A stretch of DNA of 64,000 bases from Winogradskyella sp. (GTDB lineage: Bacteria; Bacteroidota; Bacteroidia; Flavobacteriales; Flavobacteriaceae): positions 1 through 64,000 of the forward strand of contig NZ_JABSST010000004.1 in the NCBI RefSeq assembly GCF_013213975.1, read 5' to 3'. The notes below the pieces were generated by a model that worked only from the letters and a program-made list of their open reading frames with translations, was not told the DNA's origin and made no database searches. Positions 59,269 through 62,259 of the stretch are shown one piece after another. A program made the position numbers and the translations under genes. The first letter of the stretch is position 1. Every line of letters begins with the position of its first letter.

Positions 59269-59877
59269 ATGGCTTTTGAATTACCAAAATTAAACTATGC
59301 ATATGACGCTTTAGTACCACATATTGATGCAAGAACAATGGAGATACACCATTCTAAGCATCATAACGGGTATACAACAAAATTAAATGCGGCAATTGAA
59401 GGAACCAATTTAGAAGGTAAATCAATTGAAGACATTCTAACTAATCTAGACATGAGTAATTCAGGAGTTAGAAATAACGGGGGTGGATTTTATAACCATT
59501 CTTTATTTTGGGATGTGCTTAACCCAGAAGATAGAGGATATCTTTCAGGTGAGTTAAAAGATGCTATTGAAGCTGAGTTTGGATCTAAAGATGCTTTTAT
59601 TGAAGCATTCTCAAAAGCTGCGGCTACACAGTTTGGATCAGGTTGGGCTTGGTTATGTGTTCATAAAGGAGGTAAGGTTGAGGTGTGTTCAACACCAAAC
59701 CAAGATAATCCATTAATGCCAGGCGTATCTTGTGGGGGTACTCCAATTTTAGGGTTAGATGTGTGGGAGCACGCCTATTACTTAAATTACCAAAATAGAA
59801 GACCAGATTATATTGAGGCGTTTTTCAAGGTCATTAATTGGAATGAAGTAGAGCGGAGATATGCTCAAGCAAAATAA
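59269..59877 (+). CDS. sodA: Superoxide dismutase (Fe/Mn)
   Basis: 202 aa; [39 protein letters not shown]. Confidence 0.95.
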
Positions 59878-59898: not shown

Positions 59899-59928
59899 AA
59901 ATCCAAGTCCATATGGCTTGGATTTTTT
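59899..59928 (+). terminator. Terminator of sod
   Basis: AATCCAAG-tccatatgg-CTTGGATT + T6. Confidence 0.85.
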
Positions 59929-59942
59929 AATGTTTTTAAATG

Positions 59943-60014
59943 AAAAAAGGTGAACAGAGAGTTCACCTTTTTTGCCCCAAATCTACCATAAACTTAACCT
60001 ACTTATGTTATGGT
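59943..60014 (-). ncRNA. Putative small RNA, copy 1 (~72 nt) ending in a Rho-independent terminator
   Basis: Minus strand: TATATTTG -7 box (60026-60019), 4 nt, ACCATAACATAAGTAGGTTAAGTTTATGGTAGATTTGGGGCAAAAAAGGTGAAC-tctct-GTTCACCTTTTTT; near-identical to 60177-60248. Confidence 0.6.
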
Positions 60015-60176
60015 GAGTCAAATATAGGAGGACCTATATTTAATATTTTAATTTATTGGATAAACGACCTATATATTAGTCTAAGCGAAGAATCCTCTGG
60101 CATTAGAAATCTTTTGAAAATAAAATCGATTAGTGAATAGAAGCTTTACATAAAGTATTACTTTAATATGGTGCAT

Positions 60177-60248
60177 AAAAAAAGGTGAACAGAGTTCACC
60201 TTTTTTTGCCCCAAATCTACCATGAACTTAACCTACTTATGTTATGGT
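60177..60248 (-). ncRNA. Putative small RNA, copy 2 (~72 nt), tandem paralogue of copy 1
   Basis: Minus strand: TACATTGG -7-like box (60260-60253), 4 nt, ACCATAACATAAGTAGGTTAAGTTCATGGTAGATTTGGGGCAAAAAAAGGTGAAC-tct-GTTCACCTTTTTTT. Confidence 0.6.
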
Positions 60249-60360
60249 ATCACCAATGTAAATTTTATTTGTTAAAACAGTACATTATATTAGATGAAAT
60301 GCATGATTCTTAGGTGAAGTACGTAATTTTTCGGATTAACCGTAAATCAATTGTGATTAT

Positions 60361-62259
60361 TTAGTAAGCACGTTCTTTATTCCCTTCAAAGAAATTAATA
60401 AATGCTCTATTAACTACCCTATTACCGCCGTCAGTTGGATAATTGCCTGTAAAATACCAATCTCCTAAATTTTTTGGACAGGCTTTGTGGAGGTTCTCAA
60501 CTGGCTGAAAAATTATTTTAACTTCTGCGTTGACATCTTTATCACTGAGCAATTCCGAAATCTTAGCCGAGATTTGTTCGTCTGTAAAGTTGTTGTAAAT
60601 TTCTTTAACATAATTAAGGACGTTCTTATCTTTAAGATTTACTTGCTTAATACATTTTTTATAAACCTCTTCAACAATATGATATTGATTGTTATCCTTA
60701 AGAAGTTCAAGAGCGGCTCTAAAAGCAACTAAACTTTCAAGATTGGCCATGTCAATACCATAGCAGTCAGGATAACGAATTTGAGGAGCAGACGAAACAA
60801 CAATAATTTTCTTTGGATTCAAACGATCCATCATTTTTATGATACTTTTTTTCAAGGTCGTACCTCTTACAATACTATCGTCAATAATAACAAGATTGTC
60901 CGTGGGCTTAATAACACCATAGGTAACATCATAAACATGAGCTACTAAATCATCTCGACTACTATCTTCAGTAATAAAAGTTCTTAATTTAACGTCTTTA
61001 ATAGCAATTTTTTCAATACGTGGTCTTTCAGACAAAATCTCCTCAACTTTCTGAGCTGATAAAGCACGTTGACCTTTGAGGATGGCTTGTGTCTTTTTTT
61101 GATTTAGGTGCTCCTCAACCGTATCTATCATTCCAAAGAAAGAGGTTTCAGCAGTGTTTGGTATATAAGAAAACACGGTATTTTTTGTATCAAAGGCAAT
61201 GGCATCTAAAACCTTTGGCATTAATAGTCTCCCTAGTTCTTTACGTTCCTCATAAATTTCGGCATCACTACCGCGCGAAAAATAAATACGCTCAAATGAA
61301 CACGCTTTTCGTTCAAGAGGTTCCAGAATTTGTTTGATCTGTGTTGTACCATTCTTTTTAGTAATGATTGCATGACCAGGATTTAATTCAATAACTTCGT
61401 CAAACGGAACATCAAACACTGTCTGAATCACTGGTCGTTCAGACGCTACAACAACAACTTCATCATCTTTATAATAATAGGCTGGACGTATACCTGCAGG
61501 ATCTCTTAATACGAAGGAATCACCATGACCCAATAAACCAGCCATGGCATAACCGCCATCCCAGTTTTTTGCCGCACGACGTAAGATTTTACCAACTTTT
61601 AAACGCTCAGCAATTAAAGGTGAGCATTCACTTTTACTGTAGCCTTCTTTCTTAAGATCTTTATATATTTTACCTACAGCATCATCTAAAAAATGACCAA
61701 TTTTTTCCATCACTGTAATTGTATCAGCCTTTTCTTTTGGGTGTTGGCCAAGATCCACAAGATTGTTAAATAACTCATTAACATTAGTCATGTTAAAGTT
61801 ACCTGCAACAATTAAATTACGATGCATCCAATTATTTTGCCTTAAAAATGGATGAACACTTTCCACACTATTTTTACCAAACGTACCATAACGTACATGA
61901 CCAAGAAGTAATTCTCCTATATATGGGATGTTCTTTTTTTGAAGCGTAACATCATTTTTATATTCTGGATTTTGATTCATTTCCAAATTAATACGATGGT
62001 TAATTTGAGAGAAAATGTCTTGAATTGGTTGTTGCTCTACCGATCTTACTCGACTGATATAACGTTCCCCAGGGTTAGTATCCAATTTTATGCTTGCAAA
62101 TCCAGCTCCGTCTTGGCCGCGGTTGTGCTGCTTTTCCATCATCAAATACATTTTGTTGACTCCGTAGAAAGCACTGCCGTACTTTTCTTTGTAATATTCC
62201 AATGGTTTTAGAAGCCTAATAAGTGCTATTCCGCATTCATGTTTTAAAGCATCACTCAT
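60361..62259 (-). CDS. Amidophosphoribosyltransferase-like protein (long Bacteroidetes PurF-type form)
   Basis: 632 aa; class II glutaminase ECGIALI with Cys9, GHVRYGT, PRPP loop VIIDDSIVRGTT. Confidence 0.88.
   Translation of the reverse strand: MSDALKHECGIALIRLLKPLEYYKEKYGSAFYGVNKMYLMMEKQHNRGQDGAGFASIKLDTNPGERYISRVRSVEQQPIQDIFSQINHRINLEMNQNPEYKNDVTLQKKNIPYIGELLLGHVRYGTFGKNSVESVHPFLRQNNWMHRNLIVAGNFNMTNVNELFNNLVDLGQHPKEKADTITVMEKIGHFLDDAVGKIYKDLKKEGYSKSECSPLIAERLKVGKILRRAAKNWDGGYAMAGLLGHGDSFVLRDPAGIRPAYYYKDDEVVVVASERPVIQTVFDVPFDEVIELNPGHAIITKKNGTTQIKQILEPLERKACSFERIYFSRGSDAEIYEERKELGRLLMPKVLDAIAFDTKNTVFSYIPNTAETSFFGMIDTVEEHLNQKKTQAILKGQRALSAQKVEEILSERPRIEKIAIKDVKLRTFITEDSSRDDLVAHVYDVTYGVIKPTDNLVIIDDSIVRGTTLKKSIIKMMDRLNPKKIIVVSSAPQIRYPDCYGIDMANLESLVAFRAALELLKDNNQYHIVEEVYKKCIKQVNLKDKNVLNYVKEIYNNFTDEQISAKISELLSDKDVNAEVKIIFQPVENLHKACPKNLGDWYFTGNYPTDGGNRVVNRAFINFFEGNKERAY

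Follow-up and report, generated by a model that had tools for sequence, protein, structure and literature searches.

A tandem small RNA family of the Flavobacteriaceae with a LytTR-like operator and complementarity to translation start sites

The intergenic region between sod and a purF-like gene of Winogradskyella sp. contains two tandem small RNA (sRNA) genes, which are members of an undescribed sRNA family of the Flavobacteriaceae. According to the model that we favor, and which we hold to be reasonably likely but not secured, the family comprises trans-acting sRNAs activated by a LytTR-type regulator, pairing with the start sites of mRNAs and forming an incoherent feed-forward loop with them; no expression or binding data exist for it. 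Flavobacteriaceae probably use these sRNAs to restrain their own regulon, the expression and the direction of the regulation being inferred.

To our knowledge, post-transcriptional control in Bacteroidota beyond Bacteroides is an almost blank field, and as far as we know, Bacteroidota do not possess classical Shine-Dalgarno signals. Here, an sRNA that has hardly changed across a large environmental family comes together with a predicted activator type, a defined operator, seeds and, in these very genomes, a concrete target, so that strains available in culture allow its function to be tested immediately. The analysis also brought to light an unannotated near-universal mini-protein and suggests regulons with a common leader that is read by a co-induced sRNA.

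Tandem sRNA genes between sod and purF

The window, i.e., the whole analyzed stretch of 64,000 nucleotides, was found to harbor two near-identical copies of approximately 72 nt on the minus strand (93% identity, 162 nt apart; Table 1), as described in the initial annotation. Sequence and folding agreed with the terminator loops of 5 and 3 nt given there. Both copies folded better than shuffled sequences (z -3.7 for copy 1 and -3.4 for copy 2). The ORF at positions 59940-60140 of the plus strand is the antisense of copy 1.

Table 1. Features of the sRNA locus and of the mini-protein gene
Feature	Position	Strand	Remarks
sRNA copy 1 (sod-proximal, T type at nt 25)	59943-60014	minus	~72 nt, ACCATAAC...terminator; orthologues at 58/58 syntenic loci
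sRNA copy 2 (purF-proximal, C type at nt 25)	60177-60248	minus	~72 nt
Copy 1 intrinsic terminator	59943-59973	minus	stem GGTGAAC/GTTCACC and T run; fold and covariation
Copy 2 intrinsic terminator	60177-60207	minus	fold and covariation
Copy 1 -7 box, TATATTTG	60019-60026	minus	position-specific conservation, 264 copies
Copy 2 -7 box, TACATTGG	60253-60260	minus	position-specific conservation, 264 copies
Copy 1 direct-repeat operator, two units 20 bp apart, LytTR-like	60055-60092	minus	composite PWM 31.8, best in window
Copy 2 direct-repeat operator, contains GCATTTCATC	60289-60326	minus	composite PWM 26.2, second in window
Predicted seed 1, copy 1, CATAAGTAGGTT	59996-60007	minus	complement of AACCTACTT-ATG
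Predicted seed 1, copy 2, CATAAGTAGGTT	60230-60241	minus	
Predicted seed 2, copy 1, linker AGATTTGGGGC	59974-59984	minus	complement of GCCCCAAATCT in target leaders
Predicted seed 2, copy 2, linker AGATTTGGGGC	60208-60218	minus	
sod, Fe/Mn superoxide dismutase, conserved flank	59269-59877	plus	PF00081, PF02777; synteny
purF-like glutamine amidotransferase, 632 aa, conserved flank	60361-62259	minus, as sRNAs	PF13537, PF13522; synteny
Mini-protein gene of the own genome (L080)	G000:C137:8284-8409	plus	unannotated

BLASTN searches with copy 2 yielded matches in all 36 genomes of the same genus and in 203 of 251 genomes of the Flavobacteriaceae, corresponding to 193 of 237 genera (about 80% of those sampled), while 23 genomes from other families of the same order gave none. 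Genera harboring the sRNA include Winogradskyella, Flavobacterium, Aquimarina, Algibacter, Kordia, Lacinutrix, Formosa, Tamlana, Salegentibacter, Christiangramia, Dokdonia and Ulvibacter. With a covariance model applied to 297 genomes of the phylum, strong matches were likewise confined to the Flavobacteriaceae. Three of the four weak matches outside the family (L143-L145) were inspected and rejected as being terminators only; the fourth (G323) was not among them. Within the window, an 18-nt core of the sRNA had two exact matches as compared to 0.16 expected with up to three mismatches. This count and the recurrence in the family indicate that the pair did not arise by chance.

Usually, two to six tandem copies per genome reside between purF and sod. 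At least two copies were present at all of the first 58 loci, and purF and/or sod flanked the array at 132 of 141 further loci. In Flavobacterium orientale (L293), the copies are not located there but directly 3' of an operon encoding a TPR histidine kinase, a PAS kinase and a response regulator, and the start of the first gene of this operon also has favorable pairing energies with the sRNA (-35 to -37 kcal/mol). A metagenome-assembled genome labelled Lentimicrobium (L245) contains the sRNA with recB-sod-purF synteny and is probably a misbinned Flavobacteriaceae contig.

Across 45 copies from approximately 30 genera, nucleotides 1 to 41 varied only at nt 25, which is either C or T, and by a single change at nt 10. 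More divergent clades exhibited slight variation at the 5'-end and one inserted A; divergent forms are ACATTAGTAGG in genus g148 (probably Flavobacterium) and GGTAAGATTTGGGG in a group referred to as the GGTAAG clade. The terminator stem covaried at five pairs with double changes, a covariation score that none of 500 shuffles reached. The proposed 5' hairpin was only partly supported, as its stem is present and thermodynamically plausible, but significant covariation was not found in it. The idea that a duplicated sRNA gene family and not terminators alone is present at this site was strengthened by the fact that in relatives the sequence outside the terminator hairpin is not only conserved but the most conserved part, even though transcripts have not been demonstrated. 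Of the criteria for an intergenic trans-acting sRNA, an own promoter, an intrinsic terminator and conservation beyond it were fulfilled. Rfam scans of the sRNA at six loci revealed no family at the gathering score and only sub-threshold matches, mostly to the terminator. A literature search with the literal sRNA sequence retrieved unrelated papers only. Expression of the family is inferred, and a comparison with the sequences of the Rfp transcripts was not made.

In most genera, nt 25 (window positions 60224 and 59990) splits the paralogues into a purF-proximal C type and a sod-proximal T type. Target sites carry G or A opposite this nucleotide. Judged from these bases, a preference of the paralogues for different targets is possible.

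Promoters and the direct-repeat operator

In both copies the -7 box is positioned 4 nt from the ACC start, as had been noted before, and this distance was kept in 264 non-redundant copies, in which TAnnTTnG consistently occupies positions -11 to -4. A -33 element was not seen across these 264 promoters. The DNA between the copies, initially regarded as unrelated, is not quite so. Both promoters contain the direct repeat TGCATTTCATC / GCCGTTCGTC at 20-bp spacing, which had been missed, as had the constant position between purF and sod and the targets. After the two sRNA promoters, the next-best operator PWM score in the window was 11.6.

In the set of non-redundant copies, the operator unit TG(C/T)(A/C)(G/T)TT(C/T)(A/G)TC(T)AA is situated at -54 to -38 of the sRNA genes, with a second unit 20-21 bp further upstream in 226 of 262 copies (score 8.1 versus -2.7 for shuffled sequences). 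Variants of the unit contain GCATTTCAT and CCGTTCGTC, which are sites known for two LytTR regulators, YpdB and AlgR, respectively. The AlgR site is CCGTTCGTC (PMC4064291), and the direct repeat of YpdB is GGCATTTCAT (PMC4847170). LytTR sites consist of two repeats of 9-11 nt separated by spacers of 11-13 nt; the sRNA operator, with units of approximately 10 nt, a spacer of 10-11 nt and a period of 20-21 bp, lies at the short edge compared to most of them. Thirteen LytTR genes exist in the own genome. From the likeness of the sites we infer that the operator is most likely bound by a response regulator of the LytTR family, for which there are no binding data. Which LytTR protein is involved, if any, was not identified.

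Predicted targets and mode of action

Apart from the sRNA genes, BLASTN with the sRNA disclosed only one other significant match in the own genome (C137:8254-8284), and this match is antisense to the sRNA instead of being a further copy. It reads TTGCCCCAAATCTATCATAAACTTAACTT-ATG, straight into an unannotated ORF of 42 aa. Orthologues of this mini-protein (approximately 41 aa, a predicted single helix with the consensus MxxAxNLPEPTxxESK...LTKKxFML) occur in most genera (including L081-L109 and L303-L331); there was no match in Pfam and none above the cut-off in NCBIfam. In the best model, the gene of this helical protein would be the main conserved target, a prediction made from complementarity in the absence of expression data. 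At all 39 examined loci, the duplex of its leader and first codons with the sRNA had an energy between -34 and -53 kcal/mol, while 157 other ORF starts gave a median of -18 and a best value of -31.8 kcal/mol (background medians were -16 to -18 overall; energies calculated without intramolecular competition). At L090 and L108, the complementarity extends across the CCTAC block beside the start codon. One to three complementary sites were found per gene, the extra ones residing in the upstream leader and in the codons for Asn-Leu-Pro...Pro-Thr. The Leu of Asn-Leu-Pro is encoded by CTA in 51 of 54 mini-genes, although CTA makes up only 9.5% of the Leu codons of long ORFs at these loci. This bias is a sign of selection on the RNA.

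The PWM, for which only sRNA promoters had served as training set, detected an operator in all 54 mini-gene promoters (15-27 bits), whereas the maxima for shuffled sequences and other ORFs were 12.6 and 9.4, respectively. The distance from this operator to the -7-like box is 10 bp, i.e., one helical turn, shorter than in the sRNA genes. Directly upstream of the mini-gene direct repeat, a conserved block, AAATGTTAAA, was observed (L062-L109).

The GGGGC linker, which the initial annotation suggested as a seed, is one of two probable seeds, the other being the GUAGG loop region. Target leaders of Winogradskyella have the form TCCCAAA...AACCTACTT-ATG, and the antiparallel order is correct: CCCAAA at the 5' side of the mRNA faces the linker UUUGGGG, and AACCUACUUAUG faces the loop CAUAAGUAGGUU. 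The exact word AACCTACTTATG had ten non-sRNA matches in eight Winogradskyella genomes, of which eight were located at gene starts with an operator-like site upstream. These starts belong to only four gene families (three 56-aa membrane proteins, three CAP-domain lipoproteins, a 126-aa lipoprotein and a LamG-like secreted protein). Five of them reached operator scores of 17-25 and the CAP genes 6.5-9.9, with the 95th percentile of other ORFs at 5.9; overall, scores of CAP lipoprotein genes were modest (3.3-9.9). The gapped leader CCCAAA-N-CTACTTATG, searched in 12 genomes of ten genera, gave non-sRNA matches exceeding the three of the reversed control. They were found at the starts of genes for CAP, MAM/LamG-type secreted and Fer4_19 proteins, one ParA-like and one other secreted protein. 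A scan of the own genome for the operator pattern resulted in 21 matches, among them eight high-scoring intergenic non-sRNA sites upstream of secreted, small-membrane and other genes. One of these genes encodes the 56-aa membrane protein, whose leader in the own genome is AAAAACCTACTT-ATG without the CCCAAA part. The assignment of regulon members is not based on a whole-genome target ranking.

Some single sites may be added. Genes for Fer4_19 proteins (PF06902) of 76-78 aa possess a CCCAAA...CTACTT-ATG leader in several genera (L411, L426, L442), and direct repeats with a 21-bp period are present at L411 and L426. In the own genome, a strong operator match and a -7 box precede a uvrA-like gene (L368, G000:C76:10276, plus strand). 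At L452 +15872 (Flavobacterium G468), a lipoprotein gene resembling GldK of the gliding/T9SS machinery has an operator of 17.2 bits, hinting that the regulon reaches T9SS.

In the proposed mechanism, a LytTR-type regulator would switch on the regulon and the sRNAs via their common operator, each sRNA copy having its own activator-dependent promoter composed of the direct repeat with a 20-21-bp period and the Bacteroidota -7 box. The RNA of approximately 72 nt would expose a G-rich seed in the loop (CAUAAGUAGGUU) and another in the linker (AGAUUUGGGGC), and target mRNAs may pair with these in antiparallel order through their short leader and their AUG (5'-CCCAAA...AACCUACUU-AUG). Such a duplex would block translation initiation and damp the output of the regulon, and the tandem copies would raise the sRNA dose. 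An incoherent feed-forward loop, the dynamics of which are inferred, is suggested by the sRNA operator in front of the mini-gene and of the Winogradskyella lipoprotein and secreted-protein genes. As the start codon lies within the duplex, repression was assumed, but activation is not excluded. We are evenly divided on the broader proposal that the activator operator co-evolved throughout the family with a shared mRNA leader and with an array of sRNAs directed against start codons, the sRNA being the near-complement of the regulon leader and the near-universal 41-aa protein its tightest partner.

Owing to its tandem complementary sites, the mini-protein mRNA might also act as a sponge. As its main function, such a decoy would titrate the sRNA and free the other regulon mRNAs. 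Two to three AAATYTAYC sites lie between -90 and +45 in 41 of 54 mini-genes, whereas the loci around them contain 0.05 such sites per 135-nt segment; besides, the mini-gene is co-regulated with the sRNA, judged from its operator, and its mRNA pairs more strongly than the other targets. However, the protein is conserved across the family, even in the clade without the long antisense, and one complementary site is placed exactly on the AUG. A predominant sponge function is unlikely in our opinion. We give still less credit to the assumption that the RNA, similarly to RsmY/Z, mainly binds an RNA-binding protein, so that its invariance would reflect protein recognition and the mRNA complementarity would be secondary. 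The invariance over 41 nt indeed exceeds the needs of most seed regions, and FopS of Bacteroides binds RbpB (PMC11697453), but the codon-level selection in the target coding sequence and the co-regulated complementary leaders point to base-pairing. A type I toxin-antitoxin-like pair, in which the 41-aa protein is the toxin and the sRNA its trans-encoded antisense antitoxin, appears very improbable. The protein is small and helical, and the near-perfect long antisense at its start codon fulfills the criterion of an antisense to a small-protein mRNA, but both partners are nearly universal, the chromosomal position of the sRNA is fixed, operator and seed match also occur on other mRNAs, and a long hydrophobic membrane segment is not evident in the protein sequence. 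That the copies merely terminate purF and sod, perhaps in both directions, or act as attenuators can hardly be upheld, since, despite strong hairpins with A and T tracts between convergent genes, the 41 nt upstream of the hairpin are conserved best and have their own -7 box and operator, two to six copies occur in tandem, and sod is followed by a separate hairpin of its own (about 59903-59930).

Related systems and divergent clades

Regulation by start-site pairing, the reading that we prefer, has its closest analogue, though not a demonstrated homologue, in FopS/GibS of Bacteroides (RF04319, BTncRNA_FopS), a multicopy sRNA of approximately 65-70 nt in which a terminator follows a seed left unpaired at the 5' side (PMC11697453). 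Its seed places CAU opposite the target AUG, the targets being translation initiation regions of envelope proteins (PMC11697453). Multiple copies, a single-stranded seed with a terminator, predicted start-site pairing and envelope targets are common to both, and there is local similarity between UUCAUGGUA(UU)AGAUUUAAGG and UUCAUGGUAGAUUUGGGG. This likeness concerns the way of working and not membership, which was rejected at 21.0 bits versus a gathering score of 56. The flavobacterial sRNA differs by its tandem arrangement at one fixed locus, its 5' hairpin, two putative seeds and a LytTR-like operator in common with its targets.

LhrC1-5 of Listeria are multicopy sRNAs under control of the two-component system LisRK that repress the translation of envelope proteins (PMC4132741). 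With these and the CiaR-controlled csRNAs of Streptococcus, the proposed system shares multicopy sRNAs, a two-component regulator and envelope-protein repression. In contrast to them, the predicted targets of the flavobacterial sRNA carry its operator and one target is near-perfectly antisense; a sequence relation is not claimed. LytTR-type factors are known to drive regulatory RNAs in Firmicutes (AgrA-RNAIII, FasA-FasX and VirR-VR-RNA), as predicted here, but these are single RNAs and not tandem short RNAs having an operator in common with their targets. In Flavobacterium psychrophilum, RNA-seq transcripts were listed as Rfp1-89 (PMC9723704). Among them, Rfp18 is the sRNA of the Flavobacteriaceae for which a deletion phenotype has been published; it is predicted to pair with mRNAs of secreted proteins, and its pairing is described as involving a third stem-loop (PMC9723704). 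Unlike Rfp18, the tandem sRNA has one hairpin and a terminator but no third stem-loop.

Target sets seem to change in some clades. In the GGTAAG clade, the orthologous mini-protein is diverged (MEAQINH...LTKKLFML, L344-L363), and its gene lacks the long antisense, pairing only moderately (-25 to -35). A compensatory match to the inserted A was ruled out for this gene, as CCCCAAATCTTACC is absent there and the orthologue match is shorter and weaker. With regard to a compensatory T/A change in Flavobacterium, neither a CTACTnATG start nor a compensating target was present in the sample, which covered 17% of one genome. The weak pairing and this empty sample mean that the target set either differs between clades or was not sampled. 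Near-seed matches at L112, L113 and L115 were discarded, as they do not resemble start-codon sites. Besides the sRNAs, CCCCAAATCTTACC was found only in other repeat-like elements and at scattered sites. The repeat-like elements, which gave no Rfam match, occur in genera with the GGTAAG-type sRNA. They are intergenic (L147, L149, L176, L177, L183 and L184), show the pattern CCCCAAATCTTACC...GCGCAxGG..CCTGT...AAGCGT and include the exact complement of the sRNA linker.
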